A stretch of DNA of 8,415 nt, taken from the NCBI GenBank assembly GCA_020200615.1, contig JAIVIH010000270.1, forward strand, positions 1 through 8,415. Direction: 5' to 3'. The stretch is from Actinomycetota bacterium (GTDB lineage: Bacteria > Actinomycetota > Acidimicrobiia > Acidimicrobiales > AC-14). The notes under the pieces are model-generated. The model did not search any database and was not told the origin of the DNA. It saw only the letters and a list, made by a program, of their open reading frames with translations. Positions 1 through 8,415 of this stretch are shown in pieces (the stretch's first letter is position 1; each line of letters begins with the position of its first letter). Position numbers and translations under genes: made by a program.

Positions 1-402
1 GGCCCCGGGTGCGTCCGTGACTTCGTCAAGCAGCGGCGGCAGGTGCACACCGGGCATCTCTGGCTCCGTCATCGCCAGGGCTACACTGTGCCGAGCCTGC
101 AGCCAGCTCTCCTCCTGTACGAGCTGTGGCGCGACCTTCGGGCCGATCGCACTCGTACAGAGCCCAAGCGCCTGGCCTGGACGGCCGGGGCGGTGGCGAT
201 GGAGGCCTGGGCCCGAATGGGGGCACGGGCCGACTTCGTGAGGGGAATGGAGAACCATGTCTGGGAGATGGTCCAGAGCACCAAAGCTCCGGCGCTTGAC
301 GCAGACGGGGTACACCCTGGCCATGGCGAGCTCCTGGCGAGCCCGGGGCTGGCCGAAGCTGCTGCCGATCAACGTCGTCATCAGCACCAACTTCCGCTGT
401 AA
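1..402 (+). CDS. Family 2 glycosyltransferase, C-terminal fragment (5' end outside window)
   Basis: Frame 1 is open from the first base to the TAA at 400-402, giving about 133 residues without a start, so the gene begins upstream. The visible part starts with a basic stretch, DFVKQRRQVHTGHLWLR, followed by GY-x-VPS, and later carries HVWEMVQSTK. Segments of this kind ([F]xRQRRRxxxGHLxLR, then Wxxx-x-STK near the C-terminus) are what I know from the tails of membrane-associated family 2 glycosyltransferases, which transfer sugars from nucleotide donors to lipid or polysaccharide acceptors at the inner membrane. The catalytic GT-A domain is not in the window, so substrate and fold cannot be checked. 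The last 35 or so residues, after STK, are low in recognisable content and overlap the start of the next gene by up to 146 bases. The assignment rests on tail motifs only, hence moderate confidence. Confidence 0.55.
   Translation, partial: GPGCVRDFVKQRRQVHTGHLWLRHRQGYTVPSLQPALLLYELWRDLRADRTRTEPKRLAWTAGAVAMEAWARMGARADFVRGMENHVWEMVQSTKAPALDADGVHPGHGELLASPGLAEAAADQRRHQHQLPL
249..252 (+). promoter_or_regulatory. Ribosome binding site for the radical SAM gene (favours ATG at 257)
   Basis: GGAG lies four bases before the ATG at 257. The alternative in-frame ATG at 323 is preceded only by GGGG-TACACCCTGG and has no comparable purine-rich site. This supports the earlier start, although it lies well inside the glycosyltransferase reading frame. 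Confidence 0.4.
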
Positions 403-1408
403 CTTCCGCTGCCTCAGCTGCAACGTCTACGAGCGCAAGGTCAAGGAGCTCGAGGCCCCCGAGTGGGAGCAGGTTTTCGCCTCGATGGGCAAGGCCCCCA
501 CGTGGATGACGTTCAGCGGCGGCGAGCCCTTTCTCCGGGGTGACCTTCCCGACATCATCCTCTCGGCCATCCACCACTGTGAGCCGGCCATCGTCAACAT
601 CCCGACCAACGGCTGGTTCACCAAGCGGGTGCTGGCCGGCGTCGAGAAGATCTGCACCGGCAGCCCCGAGACCCAGCTGGTCATCAACCTCTCCTTCGAC
701 CACAACGCCCCCGACCGGCACGACGTCCTCCGGGGCGCTCCGGGATCGTGGAACCGCCTGATCGACACCTACACGGGCCTGCGGGCCCTCGACCTGCCCA
801 ACCTCACCGTCGGGGTGCACACCGTGGTGTCCGACCGGAACGAGGAGGACTTCCCCGGTATCGCCCAGGGCCTGGCCGCCCTCGGGGCCGACTCCTACAT
901 CGCCGAGCCCGCTGAGGAGCGGGTGGAGCTGCAGACCATCGGCACCGGCATCACCCCCCGGGCCGCCCGCTTTGCGGTGGCGGCCGAGGCCGTGCTCGAC
1001 GTCGAGGAGGCGGCCAGCGGCACGGTGGCGGGAATGGCCCGGGCCCTGCGGGGCGAGTACTACCAGCGCGTCACCCGCCTGCTCAACGGCGAGGAGGACG
1101 CCATGCCCGTGTGCCACGCCGGGTTCCTGTCGGTTCACGTCGGGGCCGACGGCGACGTGTGGTCTTGCTGCGTGCTCTCCCGGTCGTTCGGCAACCTGCG
1201 GGACAACGACTTCGACTTCCCCAAGGTCTGGTTCTCCGAGCAGGCCGAGGAGTTCCGCACGTGGATGCGGGAGCGGCGCTGCTCCTGCCCGCTGGCCAAC
1301 GCCGCCTACACCAACATGCTGGCCGAGCCCGGGGCGGTGAGCCGCATGGCCACCAGCATGGTGCGCACCCCCCGCCGGATCCCCGTCTTGGCTTCCTCCG
1401 ACCGATGA
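257..1408 (+). CDS. Radical SAM protein with SPASM-like C-terminal domain
   Basis: The product is 383 residues. It has the radical SAM signature C48-x3-C52-x2-C55 (CNFRCLSC), which would ligate the [4Fe-4S] cluster that cleaves S-adenosylmethionine. It also has FSGGEPFL (86-93), the family's SAM-binding GGE motif, and NIPTNG (114-119). The C-terminal third carries further cysteines, C286, C304-C305 and C342/C344, in contexts CHAGF, WSCCV and RRCSCPLAN, with GNLR (312-315) between them. This is the layout of a SPASM/twitch-type auxiliary cluster domain. Such enzymes often modify peptides, but related proteins also occur in glycan and lipid clusters, so the substrate is not certain. The first 30 residues are poorly conserved-looking; ATG 323 (residue 23) is a possible alternative start. 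The stop overlaps the start of the next gene (ATGA), so the two are translationally coupled. Family confidence is high; the role in the small-protein cassette downstream is inferred from position. Confidence 0.9.
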   Translation: MSGRWSRAPKLRRLTQTGYTLAMASSWRARGWPKLLPINVVISTNFRCNFRCLSCNVYERKVKELEAPEWEQVFASMGKAPTWMTFSGGEPFLRGDLPDIILSAIHHCEPAIVNIPTNGWFTKRVLAGVEKICTGSPETQLVINLSFDHNAPDRHDVLRGAPGSWNRLIDTYTGLRALDLPNLTVGVHTVVSDRNEEDFPGIAQGLAALGADSYIAEPAEERVELQTIGTGITPRAARFAVAAEAVLDVEEAASGTVAGMARALRGEYYQRVTRLLNGEEDAMPVCHAGFLSVHVGADGDVWSCCVLSRSFGNLRDNDFDFPKVWFSEQAEEFRTWMRERRCSCPLANAAYTNMLAEPGAVSRMATSMVRTPRRIPVLASSDR

Positions 1409-3351
1409 TCCTCGTCACCGGCGCGTCGGGCTTCATCGGGCGCCACCTGGTGCGCGCCCTGGCGCAGGACGGCCGAGAAGTGCGCGCTCTGGTGCGTAGC
1501 GACGAGGCCGCCGCTCGGGTGCGCGAGATGGGCGTCGTCGGGGGGGCCAGAGGCGATCTCGAAGACGCCGAGAGCCTGAAGGCGGCCGCCGCCGGCTGCG
1601 ACCTGGTGTTCCACCTGGCCGGCTCCTACCGGGGATCGGCGGCGACCATGCACAGCTCCCACGTGGCCGGCACCGCCCGCCTCCTGCGCGCCGTGGAGCC
1701 CACGGCCCGGTTCGTGCTGGTCAGCTCCACCTCCGTCTACGGATGGGACCAGAACTGGCCCGCCGATCACGCCACCCTTCCCCGGCCGGCGTCGGCCTAC
1801 GGGTCGGCCAAGCTCGCCGCCGAACGCCTGGTCCTGGCCCGGACCACGGGCGAGTCGGTCGTCGTCCGCCCCACCATCACCTACGGCACGGGTGACGACC
1901 ACGGCATGCTGGCCCGCACCTACCGGCTCCTCCGCAAGGGGGTCCGCCGGTTCCCGGGCACGGGCGAGAACCGGATCCACCTCACCCACGTCGACGATCT
2001 CGTCGCCGGGCTACAGCTCGTGGCCGTCAAGGGGGACGGGATCTACCTCCTGGCCGGGCCTACGGCCGAGCCCGTCCGCCACTTGTTTGCTCTGCTGGCC
2101 GAAGGCGCCGGGCTTCCTGCCCCCCGCTTCGGGCTTCCCGCCGGCCTCCTCCGTCCCGTGGCCAAGGGCGTGGACGCTGCCTGGGCCGCCGCCGGCCGGA
2201 AGGGGGAGGCGCCTCTGTCACGCCACTCGGTCGACGTGCTCACCCGGGACCGGGCCTACCGGGCCACCCGGGCCGAGGACGAGCTGGGGTGGACGCCGGC
2301 CATCACCGTCGAGGAGGGCGTGCCCGAGGTGGGCGCCTGGCTGGCCTCGATCTCGGGTGCCACCGCGTCGACCAAGACCCGGTCGCCGGCGCAGGCCGAG
2401 CCCGGCCGGCCGTCAGCCGCGGCCGTGGCCTCGGGCAACGCCACCACCGGCTCGGAAAACGAGCTGGGTTTCGACTGGCGCGGCTACGTGGCCGACCCCG
2501 ACGAGGGCTTGGGCACGGTCTACGAGCGCTTCGCCCTGAGGGACGTGCTGCAGGCTGCGGTGGGGCGCACCGGTTCGCAGAGCGTGCTCCACGCCCCCCT
2601 GTTCGGGATGATGGGCTTCCCCGGGCTCGACGCCGCCTTCCTGGCCCAGGAGGGCATGCGGGTGGGCCTGCTCGACTTCTCCGAGGAGCGCCTGGAGGCT
2701 GTGCGTGCCCAGTGGGAGGAGTTCGGGCTCACCCCGGAGCTGCACCTGGTTGACGGCCCCGATCCCGCCTCCTGGCCCGACCGCCTGGCGGCCGAGTACG
2801 ACCTCGTCTTCAGCTTCGCTGCGCTCTGGTGGTTCGACGACCCGTGGGCCGTGCTGGCCGCCCAGACGCGCTGGGCCGGCCGCGGGGTGCTCTCGTGCGT
2901 GCCCAACATGAACGTGTTCCTCAAGATGCGGGCCCGCCTGTGGCACCAGGGCCTGTTCGACAAGCTCAACGAGGAGGCCCTCGACCGCCAGGCCCAGCTG
3001 GCTGCGGGCCAGAAGCTCGGCCTGTCGGCCGTAGACAGCGGCCTGTTCGACATCCCGCCCTTCCCCGACACGTCCGTCCCCCTGGCCAAGGTGGTGCGGG
3101 CCGTGCTGGGCAAGAAGGACGCTCCCGCACCCGTGGCCACGACCGACGGTCCCCGGGGCGAGGGCGAGCCGGGCGAGGGGGCGTGGAGCTGGTCGATCCT
3201 CCCCTACCTCAAGGGGGAGCAGCCCGACCTCGAGGAGCGGGTGGCCAAACTGGCCGCTTGGGAGCGGTACGTCCCCAAGTCGGTGGCCCCCGGCTTGGCC
3301 CACCACCGCTACACGCTCTTCATCCCCACCGAGGTCCCGACCGGTCGCTGA
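1405..3351 (+). CDS. Fusion: NAD-dependent epimerase/dehydratase plus methyltransferase-like domain
   Basis: The product is 648 residues. Residues 1-315 form an extended short-chain dehydrogenase: the nucleotide-binding TGASGFIG (5-12), an SSTSVYG strand (107-113) and the catalytic Y132-GSA-K136. Members oxidise or epimerise nucleotide sugars, or reduce other carbonyl compounds, with NAD(P). A linker rich in Ala, Pro, Ser and Thr (about 318-350) follows. Residues 365-500 then look like a Rossmann methyltransferase: VLHAPLFGMMGFPG in the place of motif I, VGLLDFS with acidic D424 at the end of strand two, and EYDLVFSFAALWWFDD as the motif IV/V region. The usual GxGxG is absent, so SAM binding is doubtful. 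ATG at 1405 overlaps the preceding TGA; an open frame reaches back to 1111 but that part shadows the radical SAM gene. The fusion could modify a sugar or a peptide; nothing in the sequence decides. Confidence 0.85.
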   Translation: MILVTGASGFIGRHLVRALAQDGREVRALVRSDEAAARVREMGVVGGARGDLEDAESLKAAAAGCDLVFHLAGSYRGSAATMHSSHVAGTARLLRAVEPTARFVLVSSTSVYGWDQNWPADHATLPRPASAYGSAKLAAERLVLARTTGESVVVRPTITYGTGDDHGMLARTYRLLRKGVRRFPGTGENRIHLTHVDDLVAGLQLVAVKGDGIYLLAGPTAEPVRHLFALLAEGAGLPAPRFGLPAGLLRPVAKGVDAAWAAAGRKGEAPLSRHSVDVLTRDRAYRATRAEDELGWTPAITVEEGVPEVGAWLASISGATASTKTRSPAQAEPGRPSAAAVASGNATTGSENELGFDWRGYVADPDEGLGTVYERFALRDVLQAAVGRTGSQSVLHAPLFGMMGFPGLDAAFLAQEGMRVGLLDFSEERLEAVRAQWEEFGLTPELHLVDGPDPASWPDRLAAEYDLVFSFAALWWFDDPWAVLAAQTRWAGRGVLSCVPNMNVFLKMRARLWHQGLFDKLNEEALDRQAQLAAGQKLGLSAVDSGLFDIPPFPDTSVPLAKVVRAVLGKKDAPAPVATTDGPRGEGEPGEGAWSWSILPYLKGEQPDLEERVAKLAAWERYVPKSVAPGLAHHRYTLFIPTEVPTGR

Positions 3352-3356
3352 GCGAG

Positions 3357-3384
3357 CCCGGGCGTTTTCCGGCGGACCCGGGCG
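3357..3384 (+). repeat. CCCGGGCG repeat pair before the small-protein genes
   Basis: CCCGGGCG occurs at 3357-3364 and again at 3377-3384, exactly 20 bases apart. Because CCCGGG is its own complement, the pair can also fold as a 6-bp stem with a 14-base loop containing TTTT. It sits in the only sizeable gap between the enzyme genes and the small-protein genes. It could be an attenuator, an mRNA stability element or a chance product of high GC; there is no U tract after it, so it is not a classical terminator. Confidence 0.3.
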
Positions 3385-3414
3385 GGTACCTACCAGCAGC
3401 AGGCGGACCGGACG

Positions 3415-3420
3415 AAGGAG
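3415..3420 (+). promoter_or_regulatory. Strong ribosome binding site for first small gene
   Basis: AAGGAG six bases before ATG 3427 is close to the ideal complement of the 16S rRNA tail. It contrasts with the absence of any such site before the protease gene at 4438, which suggests the small proteins are made in excess of the protease. Confidence 0.65.
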
Positions 3421-3426
3421 TCACCC

Positions 3427-3657
3427 ATGTCGAATCCCGCCAACGAGTTGAGTCTCGAGGACCTGGACGCCGAGGAGGCCCTGGCCCTTCCCGAGCGGCA
3501 GGCCATGTCGAAGATCGACCTCGGTGCCGGCCTGGGGATCGACAACTTCGCCATGCCCATCAACGAGGCGACGGCCATGAACATCTCGTCGAACCAGTCG
3601 ATCGCCTTCGCCGATGCCGACCAGATCGTGGTCATCAACCAGGTCGACGAGGACTGA
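3427..3657 (+). CDS. Small precursor-like protein 1 (LPERQAMS motif, one repeat unit)
   Basis: A 76-residue acidic protein, first of three paralogues. Residues 1-20 are rich in Glu, Asp and Leu; LPERQAMS follows at 21-28, then a Gly-containing linker. One degenerate copy of the family's 14-residue unit comes next (D39-N52, FAMPINEATAMN), and then a tail with ADADQIVVINQVDED. There is no signal peptide or membrane segment, and no Cys, Trp or Tyr. Alignment with the next two proteins is position-for-position through residue 28 and again at P44 and N52 of paralogue 2, so common origin is clear. I do not recognise a named family. The best reading is a substrate or precursor peptide with an N-terminal leader ending near AMS, acted on by the PqqD-M50 protease downstream. 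A structural or secreted hydrophobic protein is the alternative. Reality of the gene is supported by its ribosome binding site and by the paralogues. Confidence 0.8.
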   Translation: MSNPANELSLEDLDAEEALALPERQAMSKIDLGAGLGIDNFAMPINEATAMNISSNQSIAFADADQIVVINQVDED

Positions 3658-3661
3658 GGAG
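3656..3661 (+). promoter_or_regulatory. Ribosome binding site for second small gene, overlapping the previous stop
   Basis: GAGGAG overlaps the TGA stop of the first small gene and lies four bases before ATG 3666. The two genes are eight bases apart and are almost certainly on one transcript. Confidence 0.6.
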
Positions 3662-3665
3662 CTAA

Positions 3666-3980
3666 ATGGACCACAAGCCTGAGCTGACGAACGCCGAGAT
3701 GGACGCAGAAACCGCGGCCGCCCTCCCCGATCGGGAGGCCATGTCGCTGCTCGATCTGACCGCGAACCTCGACCTTGCGCTCGATATCGCCGCGCCCGTA
3801 AACGCGGCCATCGCGGCCAACGCCAACGTGGCGGCCCCGATCGACGCCGCTGTCGCCGCCAACATCGGTTCCGTCGGGTCCGAGGCCACGGCTGTGGCCG
3901 ACCAGGACTCGATCATCATCCAGGACCTGGACGGCACGGCCATCGCCAACGCCACCCAGGACGCCAACGTCGAGCAGTAG
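3666..3980 (+). CDS. Small precursor-like protein 2 (LPDREAMS motif, two repeat units)
   Basis: A 104-residue acidic, Ala-rich protein. Its N-terminus has ELTNAEM (6-12), shared with paralogue 3 as ITNAEL, then LPDREAMSLLDL at 20-31. Two adjacent 14-residue units follow: L39-N52 (core AAPVNAAIAAN) and A53-N66 (core AAPIDAAVAAN). The tail includes ADQDSIIIQDLDG (78-90) and ends in TQDANVEQ. It contains no Cys, Trp, Tyr or Phe, which rules out thioether or aromatic cross-links. Each unit has one proline and an Asn at the end, so the core could form short helices broken at regular intervals, or a stacked repeat fold. No signal peptide is present, so export, if any, must depend on the protease or an unseen transporter. 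I infer a modified-peptide precursor; family and product are unknown. Confidence 0.8.
   Translation: MDHKPELTNAEMDAETAAALPDREAMSLLDLTANLDLALDIAAPVNAAIAANANVAAPIDAAVAANIGSVGSEATAVADQDSIIIQDLDGTAIANATQDANVEQ
3780..3863 (+). repeat. Two tandem 14-residue coding repeats in small protein 2
   Basis: Unit one is 3780-3821 and unit two is 3822-3863, 42 bases each. At the protein level both fit x-x-[IV]-A-A-P-[IV]-[ND]-A-A-[IV]-A-A-N. Bases 3816-3847 match 4203-4234 of the third small gene with a single difference in 32 positions, a sign of recent duplication or gene conversion between paralogues. Confidence 0.75.
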
Positions 3981-3995
3981 CTCAAACCATCTCTC

Positions 3996-4008
3996 GGAGG
4001 GATATCCC
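3996..4008 (+). promoter_or_regulatory. Ribosome binding site overlapping the palindrome GGGATATCCC
   Basis: GGAGG at 3996-4000 serves ATG 4011 with a ten-base spacer, longer than for the other two small genes. Its last two bases begin the perfect ten-base palindrome GGGATATCCC (3999-4008). The palindrome may be accidental, or could be a small protein-binding site or local mRNA fold that tunes translation of the third small gene. Confidence 0.4.
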
Positions 4009-4010
4009 GA

Positions 4011-4391
4011 ATGAACGAACCCACTGGCATCACCAACGCCGAGCTGGAGTCCCAGGACGTCACTGCGGTACCGGACCGCGAAGCCATGTCGCTCCTGGGG
4101 GACCTGGACCCGGCGTCGCTGCTGGGCACTTCGCTGCTGAACGTCGACGTCGACCTGGCCCTGGATGCCGACGTCGCCGCCCCGATCGACGCCGCCGTAG
4201 CCGCCAACGCCAACGTGGCCGCCCCGATCGACGCGGCCGTGGCTGCCAACGTCTTGTCGGTCGACTCCGACGCGGCCGCTTTGGCCGACCAGGACTCCGT
4301 CATCGTCCAGAACCTCGACGGCGTGGCCGAGGCCACCGCCATCCAGGACGCCAATCTCGATCAATCCGGCGGCGGCGCCTCCACGGGCTGA
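4011..4391 (+). CDS. Small precursor-like protein 3 (VPDREAMS motif, two repeat units)
   Basis: A 126-residue protein, longest of the three paralogues. ITNAELE (7-13) and VPDREAMSLL (20-29) match paralogue 2. An extra Leu/Ser-rich stretch (30-52, including DPASLLGTSLLNV) separates this leader-like part from two near-identical 14-residue units, A53-N66 (ADVAAPIDAAVAAN) and A67-N80 (ANVAAPIDAAVAAN). The tail LADQDSVIVQNLDG (91-104) and IQDANLDQ (111-118) mirror paralogue 2, followed by a Gly/Ser end, SGGGASTG. There is no Cys, Trp, Tyr or Phe and no signal peptide. Variation between paralogues lies mainly in linker length and unit number, while the AMS region is fixed. That is the pattern expected of precursors with a conserved recognition leader and a variable core. 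Function is inferred only. Confidence 0.8.
   Translation: MNEPTGITNAELESQDVTAVPDREAMSLLGDLDPASLLGTSLLNVDVDLALDADVAAPIDAAVAANANVAAPIDAAVAANVLSVDSDAAALADQDSVIVQNLDGVAEATAIQDANLDQSGGGASTG
4167..4250 (+). repeat. Two tandem 14-residue coding repeats in small protein 3
   Basis: Units at 4167-4208 and 4209-4250. The encoded units differ at one residue in 14 (Asp versus Asn at position two), while several third codon positions differ. That suggests the protein sequence, not merely recent DNA duplication, is under constraint. Confidence 0.8.
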
Positions 4392-4437
4392 GCATCTCCC
4401 CCCTTCAGCCTGACTTCTCACCTACGCCGCCCCTCCC

Positions 4438-6222
4438 GTGACGCAACAACTCGACGCCGGTCGCACCCCGTCTGCGACCGGGGAAGGCAGCGCTCCGGGT
4501 TCTCCGCGCCAGCGGTCACACAGCCAGCCCGGCGTCGACACGCCTCGCCTCGCCAGTGGCGTGAACCTCATCGGCGAGTACGAGGCGTCGGGGTACAAGG
4601 AAGCCCCGTGCCTCGTCCGGCGGGCTGACGGCCAGACCATCCAGCTGACCCCGCTGCTGTACGCCACCTTGGAGGTCATCGACGGCCAGAGGGACCGGTC
4701 GGAGATCGCCCGCCAGTTGAGCGCCCGTATCGGACGGCCGGTGAGCGCCGACAACGTGCGGTACCTGGTCGCCGAGAAGCTGTGGCCCGCCGGGCTCGTG
4801 AAGGACGCCCGGGGCGGCGATCCGCAGGTCCAGAAGTCGAATCCGTTGCTGGCGCTGCGGCTGCGGATGCAGCTGACCAGCGAGCAGTGGACGAACCGGC
4901 TGGCCGCACCGTTCGCGATCCTGTTCCGGCCCTGGGTCGTCCTCCCGGTGATCGCCGGCTTCGTGGCCGTCGCCGTGTGGGTGCTCGGCGTTCGAGGGGT
5001 CGGAGGCGGGGCGCGGCAGCTGCTCTACTCGCCGGGGTTCATGCTCGCCACCTTCGCCATGCTGATCGCTTCCTCGTCGTTCCACGAGCTGGGCCACGCC
5101 GCCGGCTGCCGGTCCTCCGGAGGTCGCCCGGGAGTGATGGGCTGCGGGCTGTACCTCGTGTGGCCCGCCTTCTACACCGACGTCACCGACGCGTACCGCC
5201 TCAACCGGGCCGGGCGGCTACGGACCGACCTCGGTGGCATCTATTTCAACGCCCTCTTCGCCCTGGCCACGTTTGCCGCGTGGGCCGTGACCGGGGCCGA
5301 GGCTTTCCTTCTGCTCATCCCGCTCCAGATGTTGCAGATGATCCACCAGCTGCTTCCCGTCGTCCGGATGGACGGCTACCACATCCTTTCCGACCTCGTC
5401 GGGGTACCCGACCTGTTCGCCCGGATCAAGCCCACGTTGCTCGCCCTCGTACCGGGACGGAGAGGCGGCGACAACGCCCGTGTCCTGAAGCCGTGGGTGC
5501 GGCTCGTCATTACCGTCTGGGTGCTCACCGTCGTTCCGCTGCTCCTCTTCAGCCTCCTCATGGTCGTCGTCTCGGCGCCCCGCGTGGTGGCCACGGCGTG
5601 GGACTCCGTCGGGCTCCAATGGCGTGCCGTGAGCGGCGCCGTCGGCGACGGCGCCTGGTCCTCGGCGACCGTCGGCGCGCTGGGCGTCATGGCCACGGTG
5701 TTGCCCGTTCTCGGCTCCGGCTACATCCTGAGCCGTATCGTGCGCCGGGCTGGCTCGTGGGCATGGTCGGGTGCGGGGAACGTGCCGCTCGGGCAGCCCG
5801 GGGTCGTGCTGGCCGGCGTGGCCGTCACAGCCGCGCTCACGTTCCTGTGGTGGCCCAACGGCGAGTACCGGCCCATCCAGCCGGGTGAGAGAGGACGCAT
5901 CGGTGAGGCCCTCGAGGCCGTGTCATCGCTCGGCACCGGCCGTCCCGCCCTCACGCCCGAGCGTGAGTCCGAGTTGGGTGGCGCACCGGCACGGGCCTGG
6001 ACCGTGGGCGAGGGCGCGACGGAGACACCGGCCCCGCCCTTGAGCGACGGGTCACCGACGTCGCCCACGACCCAACCGGCGCCCGCCGATGAAAGCGATG
6101 AGGCCCCAGGCACCACCTTGGCCGGGCGCACCGCCACCACTACGGCCGACGTCGACGAGGACGAGGAGACGCCGGTTCCCACAACCTCGGTGTCCCCTAC
6201 CACCGTGACGACCCGACCCTGA
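4438..6222 (+). CDS. M50-type membrane zinc metalloprotease with N-terminal PqqD-like domain
   Basis: The product is 594 residues. Residues 57-122 (CLVRRADGQ, LTPLLY, IDGQRDRSEIA, NVRYLV, GLV) fit a PqqD-like winged-helix domain, the fold that binds leader peptides in RiPP pathways. The protease core follows. H216-ELGH-220 is the HExxH zinc and catalytic motif inside a hydrophobic segment, and VRMDGYHILSDL (309-320) supplies the distal Asp ligand (D312) typical of site-2-type proteases. Hydrophobic segments lie near 161-185, 198-215, 268-306, 354-380, 411-432 and 454-471. After ALTPERESELGGAP (504-517) comes a Pro/Thr/acidic tail to 594, probably exposed. The start is GTG 4438, with no purine-rich site before it. 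The alternative GTG 4561 would cut into PRLASGVNLIGEY, which looks like part of the family's conserved N-terminus. Its place just after three precursor-like genes suggests it recognises and cuts them at the membrane. Confidence 0.85.
   Translation: MTQQLDAGRTPSATGEGSAPGSPRQRSHSQPGVDTPRLASGVNLIGEYEASGYKEAPCLVRRADGQTIQLTPLLYATLEVIDGQRDRSEIARQLSARIGRPVSADNVRYLVAEKLWPAGLVKDARGGDPQVQKSNPLLALRLRMQLTSEQWTNRLAAPFAILFRPWVVLPVIAGFVAVAVWVLGVRGVGGGARQLLYSPGFMLATFAMLIASSSFHELGHAAGCRSSGGRPGVMGCGLYLVWPAFYTDVTDAYRLNRAGRLRTDLGGIYFNALFALATFAAWAVTGAEAFLLLIPLQMLQMIHQLLPVVRMDGYHILSDLVGVPDLFARIKPTLLALVPGRRGGDNARVLKPWVRLVITVWVLTVVPLLLFSLLMVVVSAPRVVATAWDSVGLQWRAVSGAVGDGAWSSATVGALGVMATVLPVLGSGYILSRIVRRAGSWAWSGAGNVPLGQPGVVLAGVAVTAALTFLWWPNGEYRPIQPGERGRIGEALEAVSSLGTGRPALTPERESELGGAPARAWTVGEGATETPAPPLSDGSPTSPTTQPAPADESDEAPGTTLAGRTATTTADVDEDEETPVPTTSVSPTTVTTRP
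4606..4803 (+). other. PqqD-like (leader-recognition type) domain within the M50 protease
   Basis: This is the coding segment for residues 57-122. The pattern is a short strand, LVRRADGQTIQLTP, then a helix, LLYATLEVIDGQRDRSEIARQL, and a second helix pair ending at AGLV. The 'DG-x-R-x-x-x-E-I-A' core is the usual hallmark of PqqD-like proteins. The assignment is from pattern memory, without a profile search. Confidence 0.6.
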
Positions 6223-6294
6223 CGAAACGCCACCACGCGCTGAACCGGGGATGGCCCTGTACGGTATTCCAGCGGCCCGCAGGCGTCGTCTACC

Positions 6295-6300
6295 GAGGAG
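6295..6300 (+). promoter_or_regulatory. Ribosome binding site fixing the start at 6308
   Basis: GAGGAG seven bases before ATG 6308 decides against the earlier in-frame ATG at 6251, which would add 19 Arg-rich residues and has only GGGG nearby. The 85-base gap before this gene could also hold a promoter (TACGGT at 6260-6265 fits a TAnnnT -10 box), but no convincing -35 element is visible. Confidence 0.65.
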
Positions 6301-6307
6301 ACTCACA

Positions 6308-6793
6308 ATGGAGATCGTTCGTAACGACGATGGAACGCTCGTGGTCCCGGTCCAGCCCGCACGGCACCACGAGAGCGAGGACGGTGACGACGCCGCCTCC
6401 TCCGTGGTCGAGGATGTGGCGGCGGCCGACGATGCCGAGCCCGCCACGCGCCTCCTCCACCCGGGCGAAGGTGGTTACGACGACGCCCTGGCCGAGTGGG
6501 ACCTTCAGCAGAACCCCGACCGCCCGCCGGTCGTGTCGACGGCCACCGGCCGGCAGGAGGCCATGAGCCTCGTGCACGCGGTGGCGACCTCACCCGATCA
6601 TGCGGTCGCACCCGCCGTCGAAGCCCTCGACGATCCCGAAGCGAGCGGCGAAGCGTTGCGACACGTTCTCGTCGGCGGGGTTCACTCGGTGGAGGACTTC
6701 GCCGCCGAGGTTGCCGAGGCCGAGGGCGGCGACCCGCTCCCCGCCCACGAGACGACGAAGATCATCGGTGAGGTGCTGGCCGAGCTCGATTGA
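6308..6793 (+). CDS. Hypothetical acidic protein with RQEAMSL segment
   Basis: A 161-residue, strongly acidic protein of unknown family. Residues 1-50 are rich in Asp, Glu and Ala and probably flexible; 51-70 contain HPGEGGYDDALAEWDLQ. R82-Q-E-A-M-S-L88 then resembles the LPDREAMSL and LPERQAMS segments of the three small proteins upstream. The C-terminal half (about 89-161) is predicted helical, with VEDFAAEVAEAEGG and TTKIIGEVLAELD. No signal peptide or membrane segment is seen. The shared motif may mean it is a fourth, diverged substrate or a protein that mimics or binds the same site on the protease. Alternatively, seven residues with two conservative changes may be chance. It is followed by a TGATG overlap with the next gene, so it is co-translated with the luciferase-domain protein and may belong to that unit instead. 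Confidence 0.75.
   Translation: MEIVRNDDGTLVVPVQPARHHESEDGDDAASSVVEDVAAADDAEPATRLLHPGEGGYDDALAEWDLQQNPDRPPVVSTATGRQEAMSLVHAVATSPDHAVAPAVEALDDPEASGEALRHVLVGGVHSVEDFAAEVAEAEGGDPLPAHETTKIIGEVLAELD
6551..6571 (+). other. AMSL motif shared with the small proteins
   Basis: These codons give RQEAMSL (residues 82-88). Compare RQAMS in small protein 1 (24-28) and REAMSLL in small proteins 2 and 3 (23-29). Position differs: it is central here and near residue 24 in the others. Confidence 0.45.
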
Positions 6794-7311
6794 TGAGCGC
6801 GGTCGATCCCGGGCGGGCGCCCTTGCCGAAACGGGCAGGACCCCGGCCGACGACCACTCCGACCAACCCGCACATGCAGCTCGACCAGCAGCCGGTCGGG
6901 ACAGAGCAACGAGAGCTCCTGGCAGCCGAGGTGTTCACCCTTCCGGGCGTGCAGGAGCACCCGAGCCTCCTATCACTACCGGGGGCGCGCGCCCTGTGGC
7001 TCGCCGACGTGGTCGGTGCTCCCGCCGACGCTTTCATGGCCGGCATCGAGTTTGCCCACCTCCACCCGAGCCCCGACCAGAGTTTGCACATGATGCTGCC
7101 GCCCGCTCTGGTCGATGAGGCGATCGAAGCGGGGTGGGCAGAGCAGCACCCGGCCGCTCGCCGCGGGCTGATCTCCGCCAACGCGGTGATGGTCTACGCC
7201 CCCCGCACCGACGAGGAGCGCGCCGTGGTGGCCTCCCTGGTGAAGGCGAGCCACGCCTATGCGACGGGCGAGGGAGCCGGCGGCGACTCGGGCACCGCCG
7301 GGCCGACATAG
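6793..7311 (+). CDS. Luciferase-domain (DUF5519-like) protein
   Basis: The product is 172 residues from ATG 6793, which shares one base with the preceding stop (TGATG). The last two thirds fit the small 'luciferase domain' family (DUF5519): an EFAHLHPSPDQSLHMMLPP segment, GWAEQHPAA, a VMVYAPRTDEE segment and a final helix VASLVKASHAYATG. These are the family's usual landmarks. Despite the name, members are mostly uncharacterised, and bacterial copies are not known to emit light. The first 27 residues are Pro/Arg/Thr-rich and unlike the family, so ATG 6874 (MQLDQQPVG) is a possible true start, though it has no ribosome binding site. Histidines in HLHP and LHM could bind a metal or act in catalysis. 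The relation to the peptide cassette is unclear. Confidence 0.75.
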   Translation: MSAVDPGRAPLPKRAGPRPTTTPTNPHMQLDQQPVGTEQRELLAAEVFTLPGVQEHPSLLSLPGARALWLADVVGAPADAFMAGIEFAHLHPSPDQSLHMMLPPALVDEAIEAGWAEQHPAARRGLISANAVMVYAPRTDEERAVVASLVKASHAYATGEGAGGDSGTAGPT

Positions 7312-8090
7312 CCACCGTACGCATCGCCACCCTGAACTGCCGGAACACGGCCAACAAGTGGCGGAAGCGCGCTCCGCTTCTGGTGGAGCAGCTGGTCGAC
7401 CTGGCGCCGGACGTGATCGGCCTCCAAGAGCTGCGGCACTTCCCCTCCCAGGGCCGGAAGATCGCCGAGGCGGTGGGGAACGCCACGGGTCGGGCCCACT
7501 GGCTCCACCCCACCTACAAGACCGGCATCTGGTGGTGGTGGGAAGGCATCGCCATCCTCAGCCGCCTGCCCATCCTGCAGCGGGACGCCCTCGAGCTGCC
7601 CGGACAGAACAAGGTGGCGAGCTTCGCTCGCGTGCAGCTTCCCGCCGGAGGCGTCCTCGACGTCTACAACACGCATCTGGCGGCCCTCGGCGCCGCGGTA
7701 CGCCTGGAGCAGATGCGTGCCGTCCTGGCCTGGATGAGCGAGCGCCAAGGCCCGAGCGGGGCCGCGGGCATTCCGCAGGTGCTGGTGGGCGACTTCAACG
7801 CCGGCCCCTCGGCCGAGAGCATCCAACTGGCCAGTCGGGTCCTCCGCTCCGCCTGCGCCGTCTCCGGTGGCGATCCGGTCCGCACCTCCCCCACCCCTCT
7901 CCGGCGGGTGCAGCGGTCGAAGAGAGCCGCCGTTCTCGACTACGTGTTCGTGAGCCCGGGCCTGGAGGTGGTCGACGCCCACGTGACCTTCGATCGCTCC
8001 CACCCCGACGATCCCTGCCTGTTCGCCTCCGACCACTTCGGCGTGGTGGCCGACATTTCCGTGCTTACCTCCACCATGACCCTCGACTGA
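7134..8090 (+). CDS. Endonuclease/exonuclease/phosphatase-family protein, start uncertain
   Basis: The domain runs from VRIATLNCRN (codon 7317) to the stop at 8088-8090. It holds the family's metal and catalytic signatures: Asn in LNCRN, LQEL with the metal-binding Glu, NTHL, GDFNA, LDYVFVS and the C-terminal SDHFGV. Such enzymes hydrolyse phosphodiesters (DNA, RNA, phospholipids or inositol phosphates) using Mg2+; the substrate here is unknown. No signal peptide is seen. The only ATG, GTG or TTG in frame before the domain is GTG 7134. Using it overlaps the preceding gene by 178 bases and adds about 61 Arg-rich residues that look like a frame shadow. A natural start would be near 7308-7317, where the codons are ATA, GCC, ACC and GTA. 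Either a rare start codon is used or a base change or sequencing error hit the initiator. Codons 7308-8090 are intact and catalytic residues complete, so I treat the gene as functional. Confidence 0.8.
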   Translation: MGRAAPGRSPRADLRQRGDGLRPPHRRGARRGGLPGEGEPRLCDGRGSRRRLGHRRADIATVRIATLNCRNTANKWRKRAPLLVEQLVDLAPDVIGLQELRHFPSQGRKIAEAVGNATGRAHWLHPTYKTGIWWWWEGIAILSRLPILQRDALELPGQNKVASFARVQLPAGGVLDVYNTHLAALGAAVRLEQMRAVLAWMSERQGPSGAAGIPQVLVGDFNAGPSAESIQLASRVLRSACAVSGGDPVRTSPTPLRRVQRSKRAAVLDYVFVSPGLEVVDAHVTFDRSHPDDPCLFASDHFGVVADISVLTSTMTLD

Positions 8091-8142
8091 GCCGAACAGA
8101 GAAGGGTCCGTGGCGGAGCTACGCCGGCTTGCTACGGTTATC

Positions 8143-8333
8143 CCTTCGTCGACGCCGCTGTTTCTGGGCGGTGCCCGAAGGTTCCAGGAGGTCTTGCCAC
8201 TCGATCAGCCACGCCCAGGGTGCCGTCTGCACCTCGTAAGGACGATGGTCCCGGGCCCTGGCTCGCGAGGTGAATGCTGCAGATAGACGAGTGCCCGCAT
8301 TTCAAGCCACACCTGATGCCCCCAGAAGGGGGC
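8143..8333 (+). promoter_or_regulatory. Hairpin-rich leader region before a secreted-protein gene
   Basis: The 260 bases between the phosphodiesterase-type gene and ATG 8351 contain no plausible gene but several complementary pairs: CCTTCG 8143-8148 with CGAAGG 8176-8181; CTGGGCG 8164-8170 with CGCCCAG 8212-8218 (an alternative to the first); GGTGC 8219-8223 with GCACC 8229-8233; AGGTG with CACCT around an inner AATGC/GCATT pair (about 8266-8315); and GCCCCC 8318-8323 with GGGGGC 8328-8333, a strong stem five bases before the ribosome binding site. TACGGT at 8133-8138 could be a -10 box. A structured 5' untranslated RNA, perhaps a riboswitch or attenuator, is plausible. I could not match it to a known riboswitch consensus (c-di-AMP, c-di-GMP, cobalamin and glycine were considered). 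Confidence 0.35.
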
Positions 8334-8337
8334 TTCC

Positions 8338-8344
8338 GAGGAGG
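8338..8344 (+). promoter_or_regulatory. Ribosome binding site for the last gene
   Basis: GAGGAGG, six bases before ATG 8351, is a near-perfect Shine-Dalgarno sequence. It lies directly after the GC-rich hairpin at 8318-8333, so folding upstream could expose or hide it. Confidence 0.7.
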
Positions 8345-8350
8345 CGCAAA

Positions 8351-8415
8351 ATGCGCACACGCCGACGTACTGCGGCTTTCGCCGCGTCCCTTTTCCTGGC
8401 CGCCAGCCCCCTGGG
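8351..8415 (+). CDS. Secreted protein, N-terminal signal peptide only (runs off window)
   Basis: Twenty-one codons plus two bases are visible: MRTRRRTAAFAASLFLAASP, then Leu and the start of a Gly codon. A basic n-region (RTRRR) followed by a hydrophobic Ala/Leu/Phe core is a standard Sec signal peptide. There is no RRxFLK-type twin-arginine motif that I would trust. The cleavage site and mature protein lie beyond the window, so function cannot be given. The strong ribosome binding site and the long structured leader suggest a separate, regulated transcription unit. Confidence 0.7.
   Translation, partial: MRTRRRTAAFAASLFLAASPL

Follow-up and report, generated by a model that had tools for sequence, protein, structure and literature searches.

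The question raised by this locus is what an actinobacterial cell makes from three small genes that carry one leader-like motif and lie, head to tail and on the same strand, directly 5' of an open reading frame (ORF) for a putative intramembrane protease. They are found on contig JAIVIH010000270.1 (assembly GCA_020200615.1, Acidimicrobiales), of which positions 1 to 8,415 were analyzed and are here called the window. The initial annotation saw in these genes the usual picture of ribosomally synthesized and post-translationally modified peptides (RiPPs). The pair of leader protein and protease is widespread in Actinomycetota, with very different payloads, and no modifying enzyme is regularly linked to it within the available flanks. 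The reading that we favor, with moderate confidence, is that the protease, guided by the leader, cuts within the membrane and so releases repeat proteins that are free of Cys, largely unmodified, and active at the cell surface. The genes in question are as follows.

3427..3657, + strand: small putative precursor protein 1, 76 amino acids; leader 3427-3510, LPERQAMS at residues 21-28; counterpart L003:9008-9238
3666..3980, + strand: small putative precursor protein 2, 104 amino acids; leader 3666-3746, LPDREAMS at residues 20-27; counterpart L003:9253-9567
4011..4391, + strand: small putative precursor protein 3, 126 amino acids; leader 4011-4091, VPDREAMS at residues 20-27; counterpart L003:9613-9996
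4438..6222, + strand: putative M50 intramembrane protease with a RiPP recognition element (RRE) predicted at about 4534-4812; 594 amino acids, GTG start

Small genes with a shared leader

The three ORFs, which are separated by 8 and 30 bases and followed after 46 bases by the protease ORF at 4438, look like real genes because the counterparts of proteins 1, 2, and 3 in locus L003, also from the Acidimicrobiia, are 75, 79, and 80% identical in amino acid sequence, with proportions of nonsynonymous to synonymous differences (pN/pS) of 0.38, 0.30, and 0.29, respectively, a sign of purifying selection. Each protein scores best with its own counterpart, which indicates that the triplet is old. The motifs LPERQAMS, LPDREAMS, and VPDREAMS align without gaps, and the tandem genes called in the initial annotation stand to the base. 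The cores behind them differ: that of protein 1 is one shortened unit, that of protein 2 combines AAP(I/V)(D/N)AA(V/I)AAN units with S..S.A.A.A.Q...I.Q, and that of protein 3 includes an internal tandem duplication of 42 bp (14 amino acids).

A profile of the three window proteins found at least 5,622 family members at E<=0.01 among 7,998 candidates scored. The family is without a Pfam or NCBIfam model. Pfam returned no family at E<=1 for the window proteins and none for the relatives P0001, P0066, and P0087 and the L006 protein; the curlin repeat matched none of these seven proteins, and membership in the curli-type amyloids was rejected. The sole NCBIfam row for the window proteins, protein 1 against a beta-lactamase model (E of 0.094; 12 bits, cut-off 815), is taken as chance, and the label "peptidoglycan-binding protein" given in the source to P0087, P0097, and P0099 is unsupported (no Pfam match for P0087, no NCBIfam match for P0087 and P0097). 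Structure prediction gave no confident model of the small protein, and a search for strand-like alternation was negative, with a value of 0.28 at lag 2 in the N-terminal half for which there was no shuffle control. No description of the leader-protein family was found among the literature listings and text passages covered.

Relatives were compared in two samples. The first consists of 84 loci, namely, the window, two plasmid loci, one viral-contig locus, and 80 GTDB loci that were found with the protease as the query; because the latter are the best 80 of at least 375 confirmed matches, they are close relatives. The second, less biased sample consists of 346 Actinomycetota genomes drawn evenly, with thresholds of E<=1e-5 for the small family and E<=1e-15 for the protease. 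The small family was detected by profile in 81 of the 84 loci, and the remaining three (L001, L002, and L083) contain short ORFs with a similar leader and different cores. An alignment of 91 of the 96 profile matches, from 79 loci, gave the leader consensus L-[ST]-x-[ED]-E-L-x-A-E-4x-L-P-x-[KR]-E-x-x-S-[LIV]-[LI]; three minus-strand matches in L024, one partly masked match in L025, and one in L078 that is cut by the contig end were omitted. The start of one aligned row (L060) is misassigned, and the counts of motif Ser, composition, and length use the other 90. The Ser that ends the motif is kept in 89 of these 90 rows. The cores range from 39 to 459 amino acids, are composed of 22% Ala and 12% Asp with only 0.3% Lys plus Arg, and are free of Cys in all 90 rows. 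Their recurring unit is roughly NVAAP(I/V)(N/D)AAVAANxxSxxSxAxAxAxQxxxIxQ. Typically, loci from Thermoleophilia and from some other metagenome-assembled genomes encode about three single-unit proteins of 67 to 73 amino acids in tandem, and those of Arthrobacter, Mycobacterium, and Nocardioides have a single gene encoding 200 to 488 amino acids with several units.

Small genes and protease are closely linked. The small family occurs in 19 and the protease in 24 of the 346 genomes, and the protease lies within about 1 kb of the small genes in 17 of the 19. The partnership with a PqqD-M50 protease proposed in the initial annotation is thus borne out, with two exceptions. In G012 the small genes run toward the contig end, and there was no protease in the part that was fetched. 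In G173 the small genes share one contig (L095) with a stand-alone gene for the four-Cys domain described below, and the protease, without a leader ORF, lies on another (L096), which means that the parts of the system can be split. Viewed from the protease, a leader ORF adjoins 27 of 28 long matches (30 rows minus 2 fragments), 18 of them recognized by profile and 9 by pattern or by eye, with L096 as the sole exception. The leaders of those nine are similar, although some are looser than the consensus, and their cores differ.

The same linkage is seen in a pattern scan of 107 sequences, comprising L001 to L106 and the window, some of which overlap (for example, L101 with L003 and L100 with L024). 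The pattern, which was composed after the motif was known, matched 112 ORFs that lie at most 1.6 kb 5' of the protease and are spread over 93 of 104 protease loci, with a further 63 ORFs elsewhere in 1.66 Mb. Seventeen of these 63 read as real members that are divergently oriented or farther away; from the remaining 46, about 2 upstream matches would be expected by chance, compared to the 112 observed. Beside the protease, the leader precedes several other types of core, including a hydrophobic type (ISLLGIPLAGLDG...NVNTSGPNWL), a AQSEATQLVFVHQ type, and types that contain Cys or are rich in Gly or in Tyr and Pro. No other finding argues more strongly that the motif serves as a recognition tag than this combination of a conserved leader with exchangeable cores, which also bears out the earlier description of a conserved N-terminal motif with a variable core in several copies; the leader looks like a tag for the neighboring membrane protease. 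The linkage in both directions (17 of 19 genomes and 27 of 28 proteases) supports the reading of the small proteins as leader-bearing precursors.

A predicted RRE-M50 protease and a four-Cys domain

The window protease has an HELGH zinc motif (5083-5097), a conserved distal DGYH, and a Pro/Thr-rich C-terminal tail, its domain limits being taken from an alignment with the modeled relative L018. The HExxH motif and distal Asp within a membrane domain are those of M50 site-2 proteases, even though the Pfam model PF02163 gives only 11 bits, below its cut-off of 27. The predicted fold of the N-terminal domain is that of an RRE and matches lasso peptide B1 and PqqD proteins, and the domain is predicted to be the leader-binding part of the pathway. 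The RRE of B1 and PqqD proteins serves other enzymes, unlike the one here, which is part of a membrane protease. These fold matches come from a second aligner, by which the four-Cys domain was barely tested; Foldseek returned no match to the protease at E<=0.001.

Structure alignment pairs the protease core with SpoIVFB and RseP. This likeness would also fit regulated intramembrane proteolysis, in which the M50 protease would break down the small proteins as regulators, in the way SpoIVFB acts on pro-sigma-K, and they would not be precursors of a product. We regard that as very improbable, since an RRE-type domain is present, the core is repetitive and without a recognized regulatory domain, there are many copies per locus, and the domain attached to the protease is probably extracytoplasmic.

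This attached domain, which spans some 175 residues and has its four conserved Cys in two CxxC motifs, was found by profile search in 79 of the 84 loci. It is fused at the C-terminal side of the protease ORF in 72 and encoded by a separate downstream gene in 7, and a further separate copy is present in each of L018 and L075. Several of the separate genes have a signal-peptide-like start, as judged by eye, and for this reason the domain is probably located outside the cell. No Pfam family matches it at the gathering level, and two weak NCBIfam rows for the L025 protein, to bindosome BasB (E of 0.044; 13.8 bits, cut-off 230) and to GcrA (E of 0.05), are taken as chance. The repeat within the domain, PxNxAxAxNxxCxxCxxxAxAxQ, resembles the core unit of the small proteins, which has S..S at the place of C..C. 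Comparison of the two by hhalign with deeper alignments gave a score of 21.7 (E of 0.0013; probability, 18%), which was reached by none of 60 and by 1 of 600 column-permuted controls, the reversed control scoring 9.1; shallower alignments gave an E of 0.097 and a probability of 0.6%. The resemblance is weak and no more than suggestive, since both sequences are Ala-rich and the composition bias is only partly controlled. A four-Cys, probably extracytoplasmic domain that is linked to the protease and weakly like the small-protein repeat is the new element here.

The window protease is without a fused four-Cys domain. In L003 a gene for the domain comes after the protease, and by that analogy a stand-alone partner could be encoded by an ORF that begins close to the end of the window.

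8351..8415, + strand: first part of an ORF whose N terminus looks like a signal peptide (by eye), truncated at the window end

Neighboring enzymes and the question of modification

Two enzyme genes lie upstream of the small genes in the window, the first overlapping the second and the pair (257-3351) ending 75 bp from the small genes.

257..1408, + strand: radical S-adenosylmethionine (SAM)/SPASM protein, outside the conserved cassette
1405..3351, + strand: NAD-dependent epimerase fused to a methyltransferase-like domain

Peptides are frequent substrates of SPASM radical SAM proteins, and both genes are immediately adjacent to, and on the same strand as, the small genes. On a rival reading, the system would be a true RiPP pathway in which chemical modification of the cores, carried out in the window by these two enzymes, precedes removal of the leader. 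RREs and leaders are common among RiPPs (PMC10036551), and this locus has both a ribosomal precursor with a conserved leader and variable core and, by predicted fold, an RRE in a pathway protein. Against modification, neither upstream gene has a counterpart in L003, although the precursors there are 75 to 80% identical. A tblastn search with the radical SAM protein gave nothing in the other 106 sequences, and among 198 genomes of the class the protein occurs in 2 (G416 and G490, at 43 to 44% identity) and the protease in 3, with zero overlap. None of the 90 cores offers a Cys. At E<=1e-5, tblastn with MpaB, MpaC, MpaD, MpaM, LanKC, and YcaO found nothing in the 107 sequences, in 103 of which MpaP was matched; enzymes that are unlinked or of types not queried lie beyond that search.

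Other enzyme types were covered by clustering roughly called genes all against all across the 84 loci. The protease was present in 84 and long small proteins, at that threshold, in 56. The next-commonest clusters occurred in 20 loci or fewer, and the top two of these, including an S9-peptidase-like protein (named by eye), are read as local synteny since they are limited to Arthrobacter and Pseudarthrobacter. Matches to ATP-binding cassette (ABC) proteins were found in 4 loci. In neither approach was a modifying enzyme found to be conserved with the precursor, an absence limited to the available flanks because only 59 of the 84 loci have at least 5 kb on both sides. A chemically modified product is thus unlikely in our estimate. 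Modification by the upstream pair is rejected as a general feature and may occur in the window alone. The pair possibly forms a pathway of its own. Of the RiPP picture in the initial annotation, the precursor and its leader stand, whereas the modifying-type enzymes did not prove to be regular partners.

The window epimerase-methyltransferase had three weak, generic epimerase matches by tblastn in the other 83 loci, and the radical SAM protein and the proteins encoded downstream of the protease had none. Among the latter, the ORF at 6308-6793 contains an internal GRQEAMSL (about residue 97), of which EAMSL is common to small proteins 2 and 3; it was considered as a fourth copy and rejected, the motif being internal and without LP and a four-way alignment giving no support. 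A luciferase-domain protein (PF17648) and an endonuclease/exonuclease/phosphatase-family protein follow on the protease's strand (6793-8090).

Known systems and a proposed route

Among the closest precedents are the daptides, in which MpaP is described as an RRE-dependent intramembrane peptidase that removes the leader (PMC10036551). In both systems a site-2 protease carries an RRE at its N terminus, and there are several short precursors whose N-terminal motif is conserved. Membership was nonetheless rejected. The daptide leader is ELExMEAP, compared to LPx(K/R)ExxS here, and the pattern E.ME.P was found within the first 60 residues of 0 of 91 rows; the C-terminal Thr of daptides was seen in 2 of 91. 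MpaB, MpaC, MpaD, and MpaM, with queries from one Streptomyces cluster (L107), are unmatched as described above. The window protease scores 118 bits (E of 4.5e-34) with the MpaP model NF041824, far under its cut-off of 300, and cores of up to 459 amino acids contrast with short daptide precursors.

Epipeptides (YydF/EpeX with YydH/EpeP) share an M50 protease, and EpeP is thought both to cleave and to export the peptide (PMC10885120). The YydH/EpeP model NF058609 covers only residues 208-323 of the window protease, that is, the protease part (37 bits, E of 2.9e-9, cut-off of 225), and the radical SAM protein is not conserved here, so this membership was rejected as well. In TMcins (TmcA/TmcP), an intramembrane protease removes the leader and the product is secreted; the protease belongs to another family (DUF3267/PF11667), the precursor has a transmembrane helix, and an RRE is unmentioned in the text available (PMC13252029). 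As PF11667 had no match here, assignment to TMcins was also rejected.

Epipeptides and TMcins, whose leaders are likewise removed by intramembrane metalloproteases (PMC10885120 and PMC13252029), suggest that the released cores might be membrane-active antimicrobial weapons. Many loci indeed have multiple paralogs with variable cores behind a single leader, and two protease relatives, at about 42% identity, are plasmid borne. Across the loci, however, no further recurring gene fit for immunity or transport was seen in the rough gene calls (ABC matches being confined to the 4 loci), Arthrobacter-type loci have as their core a repeat protein some 200 amino acids long, and the TMcin protease family is unmatched. 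An antimicrobial role therefore seems doubtful to us.

The system is best classed as an RRE-protease variant with a protein-sized, apparently unmodified product. In the cleavage-and-release route that we favor, the first ~27 residues of each precursor would form a leader that is bound by the N-terminal RRE of the protease and thereby brought to the membrane, near the M50 active site. The protease would cut after or within the leader, and the Ala/Asp-rich, Cys-free repeat core would leave the cell by a route that has neither a dedicated tailoring enzyme nor an ABC exporter. Outside, it would probably work with the four-Cys domain that most relatives carry fused to the protease, and the cores may stay with that domain at the surface. 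The genes, the conserved leader, the predicted folds, the linkage, the four-Cys domain with its own linkage, and the lack of a regularly linked modifier in the flanks were all computed; RRE-leader binding, cleavage, export, and a surface role are what we infer from them. A bolder and tentative version, which we think unlikely as a whole, is that RRE-leader recognition has been repurposed as a general intramembrane cleavage and export route for unmodified repeat proteins, that the Cys-free units and the four-Cys domain, which would lie on the outer face of the protease, have a common ancestor, and that this domain holds or nucleates the cores to form a polymer at the surface; protease, exporter, and anchor would then be one protein.

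If the favored route is true, the presence of an RRE and a leader would by itself be no proof that a peptide is chemically modified, and a testable role would be assigned to hypothetical actinobacterial proteins that number in the thousands. A minimal system of two parts, leader protein and RRE-site-2 protease, would also suit studies of how site-2 proteases choose substrates and release them across the membrane.

More distant relatives extend the range of partners. Shorter proteases of about 430 to 480 amino acids are encoded in L104, L105, L106, L088, L089, and L091, and their partners are tiny hydrophobic peptides such as ISLLGIPLAGLDGLAVNVNTSGPNWL behind a similar leader; the first three of these loci belong to one genome, G001, which also has one window-like locus. 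The single protease relative on a viral contig (L083, from IMG/VR and viral only by its source label) is distant and has two upstream leader-like ORFs. In L085, the leader-like ORF beside the protease has a very different type of core, in which an Arg-rich stretch leads into a tail rich in Tyr and Pro.
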